Source: a virus. From it: a stretch of DNA of 31,027 bases. The translations under genes and the position numbers were made by a program. Shown one piece after another: positions 3,101-28,805 of the stretch (positions within the stretch are counted from its first letter, which is position 1; each line of letters begins with the position of its first letter). The DNA lies in the IMG/VR virus record IMGVR_UViG_3300049491_000189, positions 1 through 31,027 of that record. The stretch is one strand, 5' to 3'. The notes under the pieces are model-generated. The model made no database searches. It was given only the letters and a program-made list of their open reading frames with translations, and was not told the DNA's origin.

Positions 3101-3987
3101 CGGATGAACTTGATACAGGCGGAACACCAGCACCACAGCCAGCCCCCGCACCGGCGGATACACCTGCCCCTCAACCTGCACCTGCACCAGCCGCACAGGA
3201 TTGGCCTGATGATTGGCGCGTTAAGTTGGCTGATGGCGATGAAAAGAAAGCTAAGTCATGGGAAAAATATAATAGCCCCAAAGATGTAGCCCATGCTTAT
3301 AAATCGCTTGAGCAGCAGCTTTCCAGCGGTGAGTATGTAAAGCGCCTTCCCAAAGATGCAAAGCCTGAGCAAGTGGCAGAATGGCGCAAGAATAATGGTA
3401 TTCCTGAATCCGCAGATAAATATGACTTTAACCTACCTGATGGCCTTGTTCTTGGTGAGGAAGACCTTACGGTTGCTCGTGACTTTGCTACTGCAATGCA
3501 CGGTGTTAATGCAGACCAGAAAACGGTGCAGACCGCACTTACATGGTGGACTAAAAACCAGCAAGTAGCGATGCAAGCTATGCAGGAACGTGATGCAGAA
3601 CAATCTAAAAAAACTGAGGATGTTTTACGCGCTGAATGGGGCGGTGAATACCGTATGAATGAGGCGGCTATTGGTAATGCCTTGGCTGGTATGCCAGAGG
3701 ATTTAAGTGCTGCTGTTCGTGAGGCTCGTGCGCCTGATAGCACAAGGTTATTTGATAATCCTAATTTTCGTTCATATCTTCTAAAACAGGCGTACCTTGA
3801 AAATCCCGCGAGGATGGTAGTACCGGGTGGTGACGGAAACTCGATTGATAACATCAATCAGCAGTTGGAAGAAATTAAGCGTATATCCCAGACCGAGCCA
3901 CAGAGGTATATGAAAGATACTGCTATGCAAGAACGCAGGCAGAAATTGTTACAGGCACAATCAGTATTACAGAAACGGGCAGGTTAG
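3097..3987 (+). CDS. scaffolding / capsid-assembly-like protein, 296 aa
   Basis: A 296-residue hydrophilic protein. The first 35 residues are a Pro/Ala linker with a repeated PAPQPAPAPA motif. Next come a WPDDWR segment, then KYNSPKDVAHAYKSLEQQL, then EWRKNNGIPESADKYDF, and a long charged helical C-terminus. This order (acidic or proline N-terminus, xNxPxDxAKAYxxL, WRKxNGIPExxxxY) is the one seen in phage head scaffolding or capsid-assembly proteins of T7-like and related phages. Such proteins act inside the procapsid and are then expelled. Unusually, no major capsid gene follows; the next product has only 147 residues. Alternatives are a minor head protein with the same motif. Confidence 0.7.
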   Translation: MTDELDTGGTPAPQPAPAPADTPAPQPAPAPAAQDWPDDWRVKLADGDEKKAKSWEKYNSPKDVAHAYKSLEQQLSSGEYVKRLPKDAKPEQVAEWRKNNGIPESADKYDFNLPDGLVLGEEDLTVARDFATAMHGVNADQKTVQTALTWWTKNQQVAMQAMQERDAEQSKKTEDVLRAEWGGEYRMNEAAIGNALAGMPEDLSAAVREARAPDSTRLFDNPNFRSYLLKQAYLENPARMVVPGGDGNSIDNINQQLEEIKRISQTEPQRYMKDTAMQERRQKLLQAQSVLQKRAG

Positions 3988-3996
3988 GAATAGTAT

Positions 3997-4440
3997 ATGG
4001 CAGATGCAAAGAAATTAAATCCCCCCATTCCAGCGCAGAATTTCACTATGTTACAGCAGGTGTCGCTTGATTTTGCGGCAACTCCTCGCGCTGGTGCAAC
4101 GATTGACGATGTGATGGAACCATCCTATTGGATGACTATTGCTCACATGCTGAAAGTTGGTAGTGAGATTCGCGTTATTCCTGAAGATAATTCTTGGTAT
4201 GCGCGGCTGCTTATTATCTCAGTGGATAAAATATCAGCAACTATGGGGCTGATTATGTACTCTGATTTAAAAAAGCGCAGTACGGTTTCTGAGGAGCAAT
4301 TTGAAATTCGCACTACGCATAATAACACTAAATACGGCGTATTTCGTAAATCTGACGGAGTAGCAGTTAAACAAGGGCTTGCGACTGAAAAACAGGCAGA
4401 AGATTACCTGTCAAACTATGTAAGGACAATGGTGGCATAA
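3997..4440 (+). CDS. conserved phage late protein, 147 aa
   Basis: A 147-residue protein. An N-terminal tail is followed by DVMEPSYWMTIAHMLKVGSEIRV, then EDNSWYARLLI, and a C-terminal part reading YGVFRKSDGVAVKQGLATEKQAEDYL. The [DE]VLxPxYWxxxAxxLxxxDxIxVxxEDxxWYA pattern is one I associate with small conserved proteins lying between head and tail genes of podoviruses; no function is established. The end looks like a short domain that reads an aromatic core with added sequence variation. It is too small to be a major capsid protein. An AGGAAT precedes the ATG. Confidence 0.65.
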   Translation: MADAKKLNPPIPAQNFTMLQQVSLDFAATPRAGATIDDVMEPSYWMTIAHMLKVGSEIRVIPEDNSWYARLLIISVDKISATMGLIMYSDLKKRSTVSEEQFEIRTTHNNTKYGVFRKSDGVAVKQGLATEKQAEDYLSNYVRTMVA

Positions 4441-4441
4441 C

Positions 4442-5095
4442 ATGGTGGATTTAGCCATAAAGCTAACGATATACAACGAAGCCCTAAGTGATTTTCTTGG
4501 AGAGAGGATTCTTAATTCTCTCTCAGAATCACGCAAGCCCCGCCGTGTGTTGGATGCTATATGGAACGCAGGAGCAATGGACTATTGCCTTGAACGCGCT
4601 GATTGGAATTGGGCGATACGCTCGGTACAAGCAGATGCTTCACCCTCCATAGACCCTGATTTTGGTTTCCGTTACGGGTTTGACAAGCCTGATGATTGGC
4701 TTCGTACCAGTGCTGTTTCATTGGATGAGTATTTTAAATCCCCGTTGTTAAATTATTCTGATGAAAACGGTTACTGGTACGCAGACGTTGACCAGATATA
4801 TATACGCTACGTTTCCAAAGACGATAACTATGGCTACGATATGTCTAAATGGACGCAAGCATTTAGAAAGTATGTTGCTTCGTATCTGGCATTTAAGGCT
4901 GGTAAATCCATAATGGGAACAATGTCTGATTCTGGTGGCTTAGAAATGCAAATGAAAAAAGCACTTTATGCCGCTAAATCGCATGACGCATTGGGACAAC
5001 CGCCTTCGTTCCAGCCTACAGGCTCATGGGTTAAATCTCGCACAGGAAGCCCTAGCCGCATGAATCGTGGTGCTGGCGGATATACGGGGTATTAA
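4442..5095 (+). CDS. head-tail connector, T7 gp11-like (tail tubular protein A), 217 aa
   Basis: A 217-residue protein. The N-terminal AIKLTIYNEALSDFLGERI segment and the RADWNWAIRS aromatic motif, followed by YGFDKPDDWLRT, are typical of gp11/TTPA-type adaptor proteins. In T7-like phages twelve copies of these join the portal to the tail nozzle. The mixed helical core is followed by a flexible Gly/Ser-rich tail. It sits immediately before the nozzle gene, the expected order. Its end overlaps or abuts the next gene, and it starts one base after the previous stop. The family call rests on motif and order rather than alignment. Confidence 0.75.
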   Translation: MVDLAIKLTIYNEALSDFLGERILNSLSESRKPRRVLDAIWNAGAMDYCLERADWNWAIRSVQADASPSIDPDFGFRYGFDKPDDWLRTSAVSLDEYFKSPLLNYSDENGYWYADVDQIYIRYVSKDDNYGYDMSKWTQAFRKYVASYLAFKAGKSIMGTMSDSGGLEMQMKKALYAAKSHDALGQPPSFQPTGSWVKSRTGSPSRMNRGAGGYTGY

Positions 5096-17688: not shown

Positions 17689-17710
17689 CATATCATTTAT
17701 GGAGAGCGCT

Positions 17711-19768
17711 GTGTTTTTAGATATTTTTAATAAGGATGCACATCCGTTTGGTGATGTAATCTCTGGCCAGAATTATCTTGGCCTCTCGCCTTCCTATTTT
17801 TTCAATGCTCTGGGTGACTCTATAAGTTCAATCAATCAATATCAGCCTACTACGCTTCCATCTTATGCTGCATCGGTTCAGTGGCTTCCTAACACAGTGT
17901 ATATTACCAATAATGTGGTAGTTAATAACGGACTCTATTACCGCTGCGCGACAGGAGGGACATCGGCTGGCTCTGGTGGCCCTACTGGGGTTGCAACTTC
18001 TGTTTCCGATAATACAGTGACTTGGGCTTACATGATGCCAAAGGCAATTAAAAGTTGCCGTGATTATCTGATGTGGGTAGAGGCTTTCTCGCTTGGCTTG
18101 ATGCAGTTTGATATGAATACGGGTTATTCAGGCTCAAACTATGGCGCAATTAAAGTTATTGTTACGAATGGCGGAAGCGGCTACACCAGCGCCCCTACAG
18201 TAACTTCACCCGGCAGTGGCATGAGTTTCACCGCTACGGTTTCAGGTGAGAAAGTAACGGGTGTTACTATTACCAATCCCGGATATTTAGTCGGAACATC
18301 GGCGCAAATTACATTTTCTGGTGGAGGCGGCTCTGGTGCTGCGGCAACGCTTGTGGCATTTGGTTCTGGCACATTTGCTGGAAGTGGATGGCAAACCAAG
18401 GACATGGTAGCGGCTATACCTGATATTGTGGCATCAAAAGCTCAGATTATTGTGGTGCATGGTGGCACAAACGATATTACCAACAATATCGCTTACAGCA
18501 CAATTATTTCCAACCTTAAAATATGCTATGAAGGATTGATTGCAGGCGGTAAAAATGTGATTGCCATGGCTATATTGCCGCGTGACACATCCCTCACCAC
18601 TGTAAACCAGCGCAAAACCTTAAAGCGTGTAAATGCGTGGATACGGGCTTATGTGCGCTCTCAGGCGTATGCTAATCCGTCCTATGCCCGTATTGCTCTG
18701 GTAGATGTAACCCGTTATTTTGCAGATGGAACCAGTACAACTGGCAGCCCGATAGGTGGCGCAGGCTCAGCGGCAGGCGCTATGACCATTGACGGGTTGC
18801 ATCCCAGCCCGCGTGGTGCGCAGTATATTGCGCTTGAGATTATTAAGGCGGCATCTATCTGGACGGGTAACGTAGCAGATACATCATCCCGCGTAGCGGA
18901 TATGGATGATGGCTACCAAGTAAGTTATGCGCCTGCTGGCAACATCCTTGAAGGCTATCCTTGGCAGGCATCAACTGCCTATGTGATTGGTGATAAGGTT
19001 ATTAATGACTCTGGCAAAGTATATGTTTGTGACCAAGCAGGCACGTCTGCATCATCTGGCGGCCCCACTGGAATAGGAAGCAATATTGCTGATGGCACAT
19101 CACGATGGGATTATTGGAATCCGCAAGGTTTAAGTGTATTCGCTCAGACTTTTGGTGTTACGCCTTCAGTAGCTACAGGTGTGGTTTACACCGGAAGCGC
19201 ACCTGATGGATGGGTGTTTGGGCGCAGCGGTGGCACTGCTTCTGGCACTGTCACAATCAGCAAAGAAACACCGTGGAGTGATGGGCAGATAGGTCAACGC
19301 GCCTCGTTTGCGTTCTCGCTTGGCTCTGGCTCTAATGTGGAGCAATGGCAAATTTATATTAACAAGTTTGGTGCTTCTGCTCTTGGCATTGAATCAGCCG
19401 CGCTTGGCGTGGATAGCTTCTATGTTGAAGCTGAAATCCAGCTTTCTAGTGTTGCCAATCTCACGCAGTTAATCTGGCAATTTGGCGATAACTTTGCCAA
19501 TAACGGAACATTTGAAACCACATGGGGGCTTAATGCTACGCAAGGCTCCGGCACTAATTATGGCTTGATGACTACATCTGGCGAGATGCTCAGTTATCCT
19601 AATAACGGCACAATTTTGATGCGTTCGCAGCCGATTGTTATTCCCACAAATGCAACTACCCCAGTCCTTATATTACGTCCTTGCTTCAATGCTTCAGGTG
19701 GCGCTGGCTCTGCTACAGCAACTATTAAGATTAATTATATAGCGTTACGCAAAGCATATACGTCGTGA
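17711..19768 (+). CDS. SGNH/GDSL-hydrolase tailspike with inserted carbohydrate-binding-like modules, about 685 aa
   Basis: A likely receptor-polysaccharide esterase or deacetylase. SGNH blocks are visible (numbering from the upstream ATG at 17699): block I FNALGDSIS with Ser41, block III HGGTND near residue 256, and block V DGLHPSPRG with Asp365 and His368. Two domains are inserted between blocks I and III: a WxPxTxY...YYRCATGGTSAGSGGPTG module near residues 60-115, and a beta-sandwich VTNGGSGYTSAPTVTSPGSG module near 150-220. A second copy of the first module (YVCDQAGTSASSGGPTG) follows the hydrolase, then a beta-rich C-terminal domain. An ATG at 17699 has no ribosome site; GGAG seven bases before the GTG at 17711 favours that start. 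Confidence 0.8.
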   Translation: MFLDIFNKDAHPFGDVISGQNYLGLSPSYFFNALGDSISSINQYQPTTLPSYAASVQWLPNTVYITNNVVVNNGLYYRCATGGTSAGSGGPTGVATSVSDNTVTWAYMMPKAIKSCRDYLMWVEAFSLGLMQFDMNTGYSGSNYGAIKVIVTNGGSGYTSAPTVTSPGSGMSFTATVSGEKVTGVTITNPGYLVGTSAQITFSGGGGSGAAATLVAFGSGTFAGSGWQTKDMVAAIPDIVASKAQIIVVHGGTNDITNNIAYSTIISNLKICYEGLIAGGKNVIAMAILPRDTSLTTVNQRKTLKRVNAWIRAYVRSQAYANPSYARIALVDVTRYFADGTSTTGSPIGGAGSAAGAMTIDGLHPSPRGAQYIALEIIKAASIWTGNVADTSSRVADMDDGYQVSYAPAGNILEGYPWQASTAYVIGDKVINDSGKVYVCDQAGTSASSGGPTGIGSNIADGTSRWDYWNPQGLSVFAQTFGVTPSVATGVVYTGSAPDGWVFGRSGGTASGTVTISKETPWSDGQIGQRASFAFSLGSGSNVEQWQIYINKFGASALGIESAALGVDSFYVEAEIQLSSVANLTQLIWQFGDNFANNGTFETTWGLNATQGSGTNYGLMTTSGEMLSYPNNGTILMRSQPIVIPTNATTPVLILRPCFNASGGAGSATATIKINYIALRKAYTS

Positions 19769-24302: not shown

Positions 24303-25823
24303 TTAAGAACGGACAGAACGTTTAATAATATCCCATTTATTAGGCATATCTTCAAGCCTTGCCATAAGGTCGGGATAAGTTGATAATACAGCTTGTTCAG
24401 CATTATCATTATCTGCTTTGACAGTTAAAATAAACTCATGCTGTGTACCATCTGGTTCAATCGTACCATTGATAACATGGATAAAACCAAGTGTAATTTC
24501 TTCACCATCTTTATAATGATAATACTTAACAGGTTCACCCCACACTGATTGCTCACTAATTAATTTGGCTTTGCCAGACTTAATAAGCGACTCTCCGAAA
24601 CGCCTAAATCCATAGATTTCAGCCATAACCCTGCGGACTTCCGCATTTTCTTCTTTGAGTATTTCCTCAGGGGTAATCAATTCTTTCTGCATAATTACCC
24701 ATTCTGGAACGCGTACCCCATGATAACTATATAGACTCATCCCATCACGCCATTTGCAAAACGGGCCATTAGCATTGTGTGGCCTATTTTGTTCATCAAC
24801 CATCAGCAATTCTGGCCTATCAGAAATTATGCAAAATTCAGAGTGCATGATACGATAACTTCCGTGCATTGCCGCCATTTCCCAATATTGGTATTTACTA
24901 TAATCAATATCTAGTTTTGCCACATGGCGGAAAAATGAAATAAAAGAATCCCAAGAAGACCAGAAATTACCACCTTGATACATACGATATGATTTTACGG
25001 CACATTCAAATCCAAATTTACCAATATTTAATTTAATACCTGCTAATATGTAACCAGAAACAGAAGAATACCAATTTTTGTTTATGGCCTCACTGGTGGC
25101 AGCATCGGTGGCCTCACGGGTGGCATCATAGGTGGCATCACGGGTGGCATCATCGGTGGCCTCACGGGTGGCAGCATAGGTGGCATCATAGGTGGCATCA
25201 CGGGTGGCATCATCGGTGGCCTCACGGGTGGCATCATAGGTGGCATCATCGGTGGCATCATAGGTGGCCTCACGGGCGGCATCATCGGTGGCAGCATCGG
25301 TGGCAACATCGGTGGCCTCACGGGTGGCAGCATAGGTGGCATCATAGGTGGCCTCACGGGCGGCATCATCGGTGGCCTCACGGGTGGCAGCATAGGTGGC
25401 AACATCGGTGGCCTCACGGGTGGCAGCATCGGTGGCATCATCTATGGCCTCACGGGTGGCAGCATAGGTGGCATCATAGGTGGCAACATAGGTGGCCTGA
25501 CGGGTGGCAACATCGGTGGCCTCACGGGTGGCAGCATAGGTGGCATCATCGGTGGCATTATTTTTGCGTTTACACCAAATAGCCGCAGCAAATCCCCCTG
25601 CAAAACACGCTACCATTGGCGATGGGACAAAGACAATCCTATGCTCAGGAGGTGGCGTTATGCCAGCCGATTCATACAATCCCTTTATGGCAATACGCAT
25701 TTGTGCTCTGTCATGGTCGTCCATAGGCTTTGTGGACATTGCATTAGCAATCCACTTATCACGCCATGCATCGAGTTGTTCTTTATGTTCTGGGTGGTCT
25801 TTGAATGAGTATTTTTTAGACAT
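24303..25823 (-). CDS. DUF6745-family protein with ATxx tetrapeptide repeat region, 506 aa
   Basis: A 506-residue protein in three parts. Residues 1-88 resemble the family N-terminus (GLYESAGITPPPEHRIVFVPSPMVACF in part). Residues about 90-249 are some 40 tetrapeptide units A-T-x-x, mostly ATRE, ATDD, ATYD, ATYA and ATDV. Residues 250-506 match my memory of the DUF6745 core: FCIISDRPELL, RPHNANGPFCKWRDG, YSYHGVRVPEWVI, ENAEVRRVMAEIYGFRRFG. Other family members carry a comparable low-complexity four-residue repeat (xxS[VL] type) at this place. Function is unknown. There are no membrane segments other than one short hydrophobic stretch at 68-83. The uniform repeat codons suggest recent expansion; length variation between strains is likely. 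Confidence 0.75.
   Translation of the reverse strand: MSKKYSFKDHPEHKEQLDAWRDKWIANAMSTKPMDDHDRAQMRIAIKGLYESAGITPPPEHRIVFVPSPMVACFAGGFAAAIWCKRKNNATDDATYAATREATDVATRQATYVATYDATYAATREAIDDATDAATREATDVATYAATREATDDAAREATYDATYAATREATDVATDAATDDAAREATYDATDDATYDATREATDDATRDATYDATYAATREATDDATRDATYDATREATDAATSEAINKNWYSSVSGYILAGIKLNIGKFGFECAVKSYRMYQGGNFWSSWDSFISFFRHVAKLDIDYSKYQYWEMAAMHGSYRIMHSEFCIISDRPELLMVDEQNRPHNANGPFCKWRDGMSLYSYHGVRVPEWVIMQKELITPEEILKEENAEVRRVMAEIYGFRRFGESLIKSGKAKLISEQSVWGEPVKYYHYKDGEEITLGFIHVINGTIEPDGTQHEFILTVKADNDNAEQAVLSTYPDLMARLEDMPNKWDIIKRSVRS
25077..25556 (-). repeat. 12-bp tandem repeat array inside the DUF6745 gene
   Basis: About 40 tandem 12-bp units; on the plus strand each reads GGTGGC followed by six variable bases (ATCATC, CTCACG, AGCATA and others). 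The fixed part encodes Ala-Thr with invariant GCC ACC codons. The variable codons come from small sets: TAT, GAT or CGT, then GAT, GCT, GAG or GTT. All units keep the frame, so gains or losses would not truncate the protein. Confidence 0.9.
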
Positions 25824-26145: not shown

Positions 26146-26153
26146 TATGACAG
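26125..26153 (-). promoter_or_regulatory. candidate promoter for the minus-strand operon
   Basis: On the minus strand, CTGTCA (26153-26148, four of six bases of TTGACA), a 17-bp spacer and a perfect TATAAT (26130-26125) lie 66 bp before the first gene of the operon (ATG at 26059). Predicted start near 26117. The -35 box overlaps the first codons of the divergent helicase gene, so the two directions may compete for polymerase. Confidence 0.5.
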
Positions 26154-27529
26154 ACATCATCCTGCGCGATTACCAGACTGACTTAGTAGAGGCTGTGAGA
26201 GCCAGTTACGGCGCGGGTTATCGCAGTGTGTGTATGGTTGCAAGTACCGGATTCGGAAAAACGGTCTGCTTTATATACATCACCAACAACGCCACACTGA
26301 AGGGCAAACGCACACTTATTATTGCACACAGGCGCAAACTGGTGACGCAAACTGCGGAGTATATCAGTAGTCCGTTTTCCTACATCATGGCAGGGCGTGA
26401 GTATAACCCTGATGTATTGATTCAGGTTGCCAGCATACAAACGCTGGTACGCAGGCTTGATACGCTGGATTTCACCCCTGATTTCATCATTGCAGACGAG
26501 GGGCATCTAGCGGCATCAGATTCATATAAGCGTGTGTATGAGCGTTTTCCACAGGCTAGGCGGCTGATAGTCACCGCAACGCCGGAACTGTTTTCTGGGC
26601 GCGGTATGCGCGAGATATGCGACTCTATGGTGGTTGGCATCGGCATGAAAGAGCTGATACGGCGAGGCAGTTTGGTCAAAACACGCGTTATTGCACCCCC
26701 GATTGTGGACGTATCTGGTGTGGCAACGGTAAACGGTGACTATGATGCAGAGGCAGTGGCAGCGATTATTGAGAGGCCAACGATACACGGGAATATATTG
26801 CAAACGTACCGTGAGTGGGCATTGGATAGGGTTACGCTGGCATTTTGCAACACGGTGGCGGAATCCATACGCATGGCGGCATTATTCAATGCGAACGGCA
26901 TAGCGGCAGAATCACTCGACGCAAACAGTGATGATGATTGGAAGGAAGCGGTATTGGAACGGCTAGAGGGTGGCGATATAGCCGTGCTGTTTAATTGTGC
27001 GCTATACATCGAGGGATTGGATATACCCGCGATAAACTGCATCATAGACTTGGCAGCGACACATCGCGTTACACGGTACTTGCAGAAAATAGGGCGTGGC
27101 ACAAGGCCAGCAGACGGTAAGGTGGATAACCTGTATATTGATACCACTGGTAACTGGCTGCGTCACGGTATGCCAGCGCAAGATAGGGATTGGACGCTTG
27201 ATGGTATGGTGCGCCGTAAGAAAGTGGAAGAACACCCCGATAACCTTACCATAAGGCAATGCCCTGCGTGTTATGCTGTGTTTGAAACAGCCGAGCACTG
27301 CCCTGAATGCGGCGTGATAATTCCCGTGAAACAGCGTAAGATTAAAACAAAAGACGGGTGGCTAACTGAGATAGAAATTGAAGAAATTGATTTAAAAAAG
27401 CGCAATGATAAAATGGAGGAGTGGAAAGCCGTAACAATGGGCGACTGGCTGGCAATAGCCGGGAAACGCGGGTATGCTAAAGGGTGGGCTTACATGAGGT
27501 ATAACTTGAAAAAAGGGAAGAAAAAATGA
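26147..27529 (+). CDS. SF2 DEAD/DEAH-type helicase with C-terminal zinc finger, 460 aa
   Basis: A 460-residue protein starting MTDIILRDYQ (Q motif-like). Walker A is ASTGFGKT (Lys38), motif II is DEGH (117-120, a variant of DEAH), motif III TATP (143-146) and motif VI QKIGRGTR (313-320). A CPxC...CPxCG zinc finger follows (Cys372, 375, 385, 388), then a basic C-terminus. It likely unwinds DNA or branched structures in phage replication or recombination; the class also includes uncharacterised phage helicases with a RecG/UvsW-like outline. There is no ribosome site before the ATG, which is preceded by TTTTT, so the transcript may be leaderless. It overlaps the next gene (ATGA). Confidence 0.9.
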   Translation: MTDIILRDYQTDLVEAVRASYGAGYRSVCMVASTGFGKTVCFIYITNNATLKGKRTLIIAHRRKLVTQTAEYISSPFSYIMAGREYNPDVLIQVASIQTLVRRLDTLDFTPDFIIADEGHLAASDSYKRVYERFPQARRLIVTATPELFSGRGMREICDSMVVGIGMKELIRRGSLVKTRVIAPPIVDVSGVATVNGDYDAEAVAAIIERPTIHGNILQTYREWALDRVTLAFCNTVAESIRMAALFNANGIAAESLDANSDDDWKEAVLERLEGGDIAVLFNCALYIEGLDIPAINCIIDLAATHRVTRYLQKIGRGTRPADGKVDNLYIDTTGNWLRHGMPAQDRDWTLDGMVRRKKVEEHPDNLTIRQCPACYAVFETAEHCPECGVIIPVKQRKIKTKDGWLTEIEIEEIDLKKRNDKMEEWKAVTMGDWLAIAGKRGYAKGWAYMRYNLKKGKKK

Positions 27530-28353
27530 TTAAAGATTTTATTAATGAGAAACGATTCAAAGGTGAGAAATTAGTTCCTTATTTGGGAATTGATGCAACG
27601 GCGGCAAGTCTGCATGTGGGGCATTTAATACCTCTTTTGGCTATATCAAAATATGAAACGCCTTACATTCTGGTGGGGACAGAAACTGCTATGATAGGCG
27701 ACCCGACCGGAAAGACCGAGCAACGTCAAAAACTTGATATGAGTATTGTTTCTTCTAATCGTGATAGCATTATCGCGCAAGTTCGGAAACTTATACCTTC
27801 TGCAAATATCGTGGAAAATTCGCCATTAAACCTTAATGAAATTTCTGATTTTATTTCTATAAATAAATTGATAAAATATCAGATATTTGCTAATCGCTTA
27901 GCTGATGGCAATAATTTATCATTATCTGAAATGATTTATCCTGTGCGCCAAGCAAATGATTTCCTGAATCTTAACCGTAAATATGGTGTTAATCTGCAAG
28001 TTGGTGGTTCCGACCAATACACCAACATACTTGCTGGTATTGATTTAATCCGCGCGATTGATAAGGTTAATGTATTTGGGAAAACAACACATTTATTAAA
28101 TGCAAAATCAGGAAAAAAAATAAGCAAAAGTGAAGGTGGTGCAGTTTATCTAACAGATGACCCATTCAAAGTGTGGCACTTTTTCAGGAACATAAAAGAT
28201 ACAGATTTACCCATTTTTGGTGGAGATATACCTATTGATGCAGAGTTAATTAACCAAACAAAAGTAGAAATTGCTGGAAAAATGGTTTCATGGTATTTTG
28301 GCGAAGATATTGCTACCCAATGTGAGTTAATGGCTAAAATTATTTATAAATGA
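27526..28353 (+). CDS. tyrosyl-tRNA synthetase-like catalytic domain, no anticodon or S4 domain, 275 aa
   Basis: A class I synthetase catalytic domain of TyrRS type. HIGH-box HVGH is at 30-33 within GIDATAASLHVGH, GDPTGKTEQR at 59-67, and KMSKS-like KISKS at 198-202. Residues matching the tyrosine pocket of bacterial TyrRS are all present by my reading: Tyr19 (Tyr34), Tyr138 (Tyr169), Gln142 (Gln173), Asp145 (Asp176), Gln164 (Gln195). A normal bacterial enzyme has about 420 residues; here the protein ends shortly after the catalytic core (at 275), so the anticodon-binding and S4 domains are absent. It may activate tyrosine and pass it to a non-standard acceptor, or be a relic. The gene is much more AT-rich than the helicase it overlaps. 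Confidence 0.85.
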   Translation: MIKDFINEKRFKGEKLVPYLGIDATAASLHVGHLIPLLAISKYETPYILVGTETAMIGDPTGKTEQRQKLDMSIVSSNRDSIIAQVRKLIPSANIVENSPLNLNEISDFISINKLIKYQIFANRLADGNNLSLSEMIYPVRQANDFLNLNRKYGVNLQVGGSDQYTNILAGIDLIRAIDKVNVFGKTTHLLNAKSGKKISKSEGGAVYLTDDPFKVWHFFRNIKDTDLPIFGGDIPIDAELINQTKVEIAGKMVSWYFGEDIATQCELMAKIIYK

Positions 28354-28369
28354 TAAGGAGGCTATTTGA

Positions 28370-28495
28370 ATGCCATACGAAAGACCGCAGCAAACACAAG
28401 AGCAGTTAGAAACCGAGCGACTCACCAACGAGAAGTTGCTTGAGCAGGCAAACATCAACGCACGAGAATTATTGAAGCGGTATGAAAGAAAGTAG
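28370..28495 (+). CDS. small charged helical protein, 41 aa
   Basis: A 41-residue frame with an excellent AAGGAGG site (28355-28361) eight bases before the ATG. The sequence is one long charged helix (QEQLETERLTNEKLLEQAN and ARELLKRYERK). Its last 14 bases overlap the VRR-NUC nuclease start in another frame, so translation of the two may be coupled. Small coiled-coil proteins before phage nucleases are common, but no function is recognised. The strong ribosome site and overlap support it as a real gene. Confidence 0.6.
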   Translation: MPYERPQQTQEQLETERLTNEKLLEQANINARELLKRYERK

Positions 28496-28805
28496 CGTAC
28501 TCAAACGGGTTTGGGTTGAAGCGTCAAAGCAGGGGTATAAGCTATTCCGCAATCAGGTTGGGTTATATAAGTTGGCAGACGGGCGCGTAATACGCTCAGG
28601 TTTGTGTGTCGGCAGTAGTGATTTAATTGGCTGGAAAAAAGTCCGTATCATGCAGGATATGGTTGGTATGGATATATGCCAGTTTGCTGCAATAGAGTGC
28701 AAGTCAGAAAAAGGCCGATTATCCCCAGAACAAGAGAAGTTTTTACACGCTGTATTGCTTGCTGGCGGCATTGGTAAAGTAGTTAAAAGCGTGGATGATT
28801 TGTAA
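28482..28805 (+). CDS. VRR-NUC domain nuclease, 107 aa
   Basis: A 107-residue stand-alone VRR-NUC nuclease of usual length. The PD-(D/E)xK-like site is Asp47 in VGSSDLIGW and Glu72-x-Lys74 in AAIECKSEKGRLSPEQEKFL, followed by the conserved GGIGKVVKSVDD end. Phage members of this family probably cut branched DNA such as Holliday junctions during recombination and packaging. Its gene follows the helicase and the TyrRS-like gene, so a replication/repair function for the cassette is reasonable. It is the last gene on the plus strand here; the stop is at 28803-28805. Confidence 0.85.
   Translation: MKESSVLKRVWVEASKQGYKLFRNQVGLYKLADGRVIRSGLCVGSSDLIGWKKVRIMQDMVGMDICQFAAIECKSEKGRLSPEQEKFLHAVLLAGGIGKVVKSVDDL

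Follow-up and report, generated by a model that had tools for sequence, protein, structure and literature searches.

What might a phage do with a relative of tyrosyl-tRNA synthetase (TyrRS) whose chain ends ahead of the S4 domain? The window that raises this question, meaning the whole stretch of DNA analyzed, is a virus contig of 31,027 bp; it is a 31-kb fragment of a phage genome, and its products include a YqaJ exonuclease and an endolysin as well as podovirus-like proteins of the tail and the virion interior. Much as the initial annotation had described, the forward-strand ORF at 27526–28353 encodes a TyrRS-like protein of 275 aa (P0001), the ATG start of which overlaps, as ATGA, the stop codon of a superfamily II helicase gene (26147–27529, forward; PF04851, PF00271, phrog_16), and a VRR-NUC nuclease gene (28482–28805, forward; PF08774 at 36 bits, phrog_93) lies downstream. 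Between P0001 and the nuclease is a 41-aa ORF (28370–28495, forward), preceded by an AAGGAGG site, with no assigned function and no Pfam or PHROG match. The three motifs originally reported are likewise present in the protein: HVGH as the HIGH motif (residues 30–33; 27613–27624), with both histidines kept; GDPTG (residues 58–62; 27697–27711), in which D59 corresponds to D78 of the B. stearothermophilus (Bst) enzyme, a column that is 100% Asp in 141 TyrRSs; and KISKS as the KMSKS motif (residues 198–202; 28117–28131), with both lysine columns at 100%. The reading frame is intact and lies within a tight operon. A frameshift near 28353 that would restore S4 was considered and rejected: reading all three forward frames of 28200–28800 revealed no frameshift, no linker homology, and no S4 domain or remnant, and the downstream frame holds the 41-aa ORF and then the VRR-NUC gene.

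P0001 is a relative of bacterial-type TyrRS, with homology far beyond chance. It matches TIGR00234 at 179.8 bits (cut-off 113.8; E = 9e-53; profile positions 26–263 of 406) and PF00579 at 127 bits (E = 1e-36), and its PDB matches are the TyrRSs of E. coli and other bacteria. It falls outside the archaeal/eukaryotic-type lineage, scoring 25.9 bits with NF006330 against a cut-off of 220; the structural model described below likewise gives Z scores of 19–20 to that type vs. 27–28 to the bacterial type. Beyond the profile score, P0001 shares with bacterial TyrRSs the tyrosine and ATP site and, in shortened form, the alpha-helical domain; the C-terminal S4 domain of that family is missing, the chain ending ahead of it. 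Judged from sequence and model, it also resembles aaRS-like proteins of the GluQRS/EpmA kind, in which the core is kept and the tRNA-recognition domain lost, though a reduced helical domain is still there. Cyclodipeptide synthases (CDPSs) have a related, class Ic-like fold and are not known to carry the ATP-site motifs; P0001 is not of this kind, as HVGH and KISKS are intact. A PADLOC search for defense systems returned no match to P0001.

An AlphaFold2 model of P0001 (alignment of 37; pLDDT 88.9, pTM 0.87) places three helices after the catalytic fold (residues 225–231, 239–258, and 260–274). Superposition with VIA-align matched model residues 1–270 to Bst TyrRS 12–319 (2ts1; Z = 27.6) and model residues 1–275 to E. 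coli TyrRS 15–329; with the solved structure of the deletion mutant 4ts1, the Z score was 27.3. Because this confident model superposes on Bst TyrRS 12–319, a shortened helical domain is present, and P0001 comprises the catalytic domain and a reduced alpha-helical (anticodon-side) domain (residues 225–275; 28198–28350, forward), with no linker or S4 after it. The initial annotation had instead read the protein as a catalytic domain alone, stopping where the anticodon-binding domain should begin. Alignment and structure overturn that boundary, assigning residues ~225–275 to the shortened helical domain; what survives is that the chain ends before S4, its terminus lying at Bst residue 319, ahead of the linker. 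The N-terminal helix and CP1 tip are also lost or cut back.

The catalytic site was compared by alignment column with the corresponding positions of 141 full-length TyrRSs, each of phage, viral contig, or bacterial origin. The residues that we take to form the Bst Tyr-AMP site (Y34, T40, H45, H48, D78, K82, R86, N123, Y169, Q173, D176, D194, Q195, K230, and K233, among others) are present in P0001 in this alignment. Where columns are conserved in at least 90% of the 141 sequences, P0001 keeps 20/20 of those in the active site and, among the remaining ones that its chain covers, 23/36 (Fisher p = 0.002, an indicative value, as columns are non-independent and the active-site set was picked, ahead of counting, on the basis of the Bst literature). 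The retained tyrosine pocket noted originally is thus borne out for the tyrosine and ATP residues, including every strongly conserved active-site column. As drift over ~3 changes per site would not spare all 20 of these columns, catalysis has probably been under selection during strong divergence.

Set beside the viral TyrRSs that resemble it most, P0001 is missing ~11 N-terminal residues, 4 residues after the HIGH helix, ~11 residues at the CP1 tip (now residues 98–110; 27817–27855, forward), 3 residues near KMSKS, and everything past the helical domain, namely the linker and S4. Substitutions further affect three of five positions that we take to contact tRNA in Bst TyrRS (W126, W196, K208, N146, and R207), an assignment reportedly due to Bedouelle and Winter. 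In P0001, W126 (Trp in 96% of TyrRSs) is replaced by L101 within the CP1 tip, W196 (Trp in 94%) by Y165, and K208 (Arg or Lys in 97%) by A177; N146 and R207 are kept as N113 and R176. Parts that grip tRNA are prominent among the missing or altered features, and this selective loss favors an acceptor other than ordinary tRNA-Tyr. Some tRNA contact may be left, given the N146 and R207 equivalents and the helical domain.

Searches of viral contig, genome contig, phage, and plasmid collections, which are themselves partial, recovered no close relatives of P0001. The nearest TyrRS is 38% identical, the lowest nearest-neighbor identity in the set, and in a tree of 142 sequences P0001 has the longest terminal branch (3.08 changes per site vs. 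a median of 0.2); the next longest measures only half as much (1.57), which makes the placement of P0001 uncertain. The lineage is known from a single sequence, and no second member of the short form was found. Once entries truncated by a contig end were excluded, all but two of the intact TyrRSs retrieved (from phages, from IMG/VR, and, among the matches listed, from bacteria) were full length, and no short TyrRS occurred among the matches listed for 299 Pseudomonadota genomes, where the shortest open frame was 359 aa. The suggested search for phage homologs of similar length therefore yielded no relatives of P0001, only two short forms from unrelated lineages. One of these, L073 (IMGVR_UViG_3300042261_001426, 3872–4732), belongs to the type-2 lineage, sharing 55% identity with a type-2 TyrRS; its 286 aa run only as far as the point where the helical domain begins, no S4 remnant follows downstream in the other frames, and the viral contig that encodes it also carries ten tRNA genes. 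The other, L056 (IMGVR_UViG_3300049031_000035, 3923–4873), measures 316 aa and breaks off partway through the helical domain; its viral contig, of 39 kb, encodes a DnaD-like/HTH protein and has no tRNA genes. Both were rejected as members of the P0001 class, as they belong to other TyrRS lineages, which indicates that TyrRS has been truncated more than once on viral contigs. The Trp equivalent to W126, which follows the conserved Asn, is retained in the two proteins, so they look like younger, separate truncations; L056 also keeps the equivalent of W196.

We judge the chances about even that P0001 is a TyrRS-derived, aaRS-like enzyme that makes tyrosyl-AMP and has given up canonical tRNA-Tyr charging. 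In such a neofunctionalized TyrRS, the catalytic core and residual helical domain would bind tyrosine and ATP. Formation of tyrosyl-AMP is suggested by the intact site and by experiments on equivalent TyrRS truncations: CYT-18 without its C-terminal domain makes tyrosyl-AMP and cannot charge tRNA, and the S. cerevisiae N-terminal domains (NTDs) adenylate too (PMC4275181). Having apparently discarded the features with which bacterial TyrRS grips tRNA-Tyr, P0001 would not charge it; the activated tyrosine would most likely be passed to a non-canonical acceptor, or tyrosyl-AMP might be used otherwise. Such transfer would be analogous to that by GluQRS, EpmA/PoxA, and amino acid:carrier protein ligases, with their own amino acids. 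A more specific version, in which P0001 is a tRNA-independent phage ligase that attaches tyrosine to a new protein, nucleic acid, or small-molecule acceptor during infection, is tentative and falls somewhat short of an even chance; the neighboring genes point to no acceptor. The initial annotation had anticipated an alternative acceptor, and the intact tyrosine-activating site in a truncated TyrRS and the selective loss of tRNA-binding features fit that proposal; the reduced helical domain does not fit the stand-alone catalytic domain on which it was built.

An unlikely alternative is that P0001 is a minimal TyrRS that still charges tRNA-Tyr (from the host, or from the phage but encoded off the contig) and lost S4 as genome economy, comparable to archaeal and eukaryotic TyrRSs, which are without S4. 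The shortened helical domain and the retained N113 (=N146) and R176 (=R207) are in keeping with this, as are the carriage of TyrRS by many large phages and the occurrence of the short L073 protein alongside tRNA genes. However, W126, W196, K208, and the CP1 tip have been lost in P0001, and the window contains no tRNA gene. The Bst deletion Delta319 reportedly cannot charge tRNA. Neither can CYT-18, also bacterial-type, without its C-terminal domain (PMC4275181). The window has no Rfam match, including to group I introns, and a group I intron or tRNA partner for P0001 was accordingly rejected within it; a tRNA-Tyr or partner could be encoded in the part of the phage genome outside the contig.

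It is rather doubtful that P0001 acts as a partner of host TyrRS, in a heterodimer bridged by tRNA that alters or inhibits the host enzyme or confers resistance to a TyrRS inhibitor. Engineered heterodimers of full-length and Delta319 TyrRS are known, but CP1, which forms the TyrRS dimer interface, is shortened in P0001. TyrRS does act as a dimer, with one tRNA per dimer (PMC4275181). The strong divergence of P0001 (at best 38% identity; branch 3.08) also makes this partnership less likely.

Improbable, too, is a regulator or sensor of the HisZ kind, to which tyrosine or ATP would bind with no turnover, or a protein that converts tyrosyl-AMP into nucleotide signals, Ap4A for example. Regulators with an aaRS-like fold exist (PMC9437257), and the ligand-binding residues of P0001 are intact. 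However, HisZ is without adenylation activity (PMC9437257), whereas P0001 keeps the adenylation residues (both HIGH histidines and both KMSKS lysines), which counts against the HisZ-like variant only and not the Ap4A variant. Just as improbable is a decaying gene, captured, shorn of its 3′ end, and drifting: its low GC (0.357) suggests capture, and shortened TyrRS genes do occur on viral contigs, as in L056 and L073, but drift over ~3 changes per site would not spare all 20 active-site columns, and the frame remains intact in a tight operon.

The preferred reading, a tyrosine-activating enzyme that no longer charges tRNA-Tyr, can be set against known systems. Bacterial TyrRS (TyrS; Bst 2ts1, 4ts1) has the same fold, Tyr-AMP site, HIGH, and KMSKS; P0001 differs in lacking the linker and S4, in its shortened N-terminal helix, post-HIGH loop, and CP1 tip, and in its altered W126, W196, and K208 equivalents. 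The NTD constructs of CYT-18 and yeast mitochondrial TyrRS match P0001 in domain content (catalytic and helical domains, no C-terminal domain; PMC4275181); those constructs are engineered, whereas P0001 is natural, bacterial-type, and phage-borne, with nothing in the window matching a group I intron. P0001 is thus a natural counterpart of engineered S4-less TyrRSs, and since its domain content matches constructs of known biochemistry, adenylation without charging is directly testable by standard assays. GluQRS and EpmA/PoxA likewise keep an aaRS catalytic core with anticodon machinery reduced or lost, but derive from GluRS and LysRS, respectively, rather than from TyrRS. CDPSs such as AlbC have a fold like that of TyrRS and TrpRS and no C-terminal domain for tRNA binding (PMC9437257); in P0001, unlike in these enzymes, the ATP-site residues are intact. 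The phage TyrRSs examined (GAP32, Eneladusvirus, and others; phrog_9270) are homologous and phage-encoded but full length, at about 420 aa. Proteins of aaRS-like type with non-tRNA roles have emerged from several aaRS families, and the table of paralog functions in a 2022 review names none derived from TyrRS (PMC9437257); we found no report of one in the open-access literature. If the preferred reading is correct, the small phage's TyrRS, lacking S4 by nature and with its active site fully preserved, would be a case of this kind and would point to tyrosine addition as an unrecognized phage tool.

No close phage relatives were found by helicase, tail protein, or DNA. The helicase and VRR-NUC genes adjoin each other in other phages as well, making the earlier label of a replication cassette a fair one. 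The interval between them is empty in Acjo_20; it holds a small ORF with no assigned function in PBb002 and Mwe-JY13, two such ORFs in Alexa, a 211-aa protein with no assigned function in S-LBS1, and a C5 cytosine methyltransferase plus an ORF without assigned function in S-H1. Since its content varies among these distantly related phages (L159–L163, L165), the interval is a variable cargo slot, and the TyrRS-like gene sits within it (here 26147–28805). The low GC content of the gene, 0.357 compared with about 0.40–0.47 in neighboring stretches, suggests capture. The DNA-modifying enzyme in the S-H1 slot is at most a hint to the role of P0001. Elsewhere on the contig, 17699–19768 (forward) encodes a protein of the virion region that combines a GDSL lipase domain with CBM_5_12 carbohydrate-binding modules, and 24303–25823 (reverse) a protein of 506 aa in which a long series of ATREATDDATYAAT-type repeats, all nearly identical, precedes a DUF6745 domain. 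The contig end (30705–31027) is a tandem repeat, the minus-strand frame of which reads as pentapeptide-like repeats (GVFRGGVFRGGEFNDGEF).
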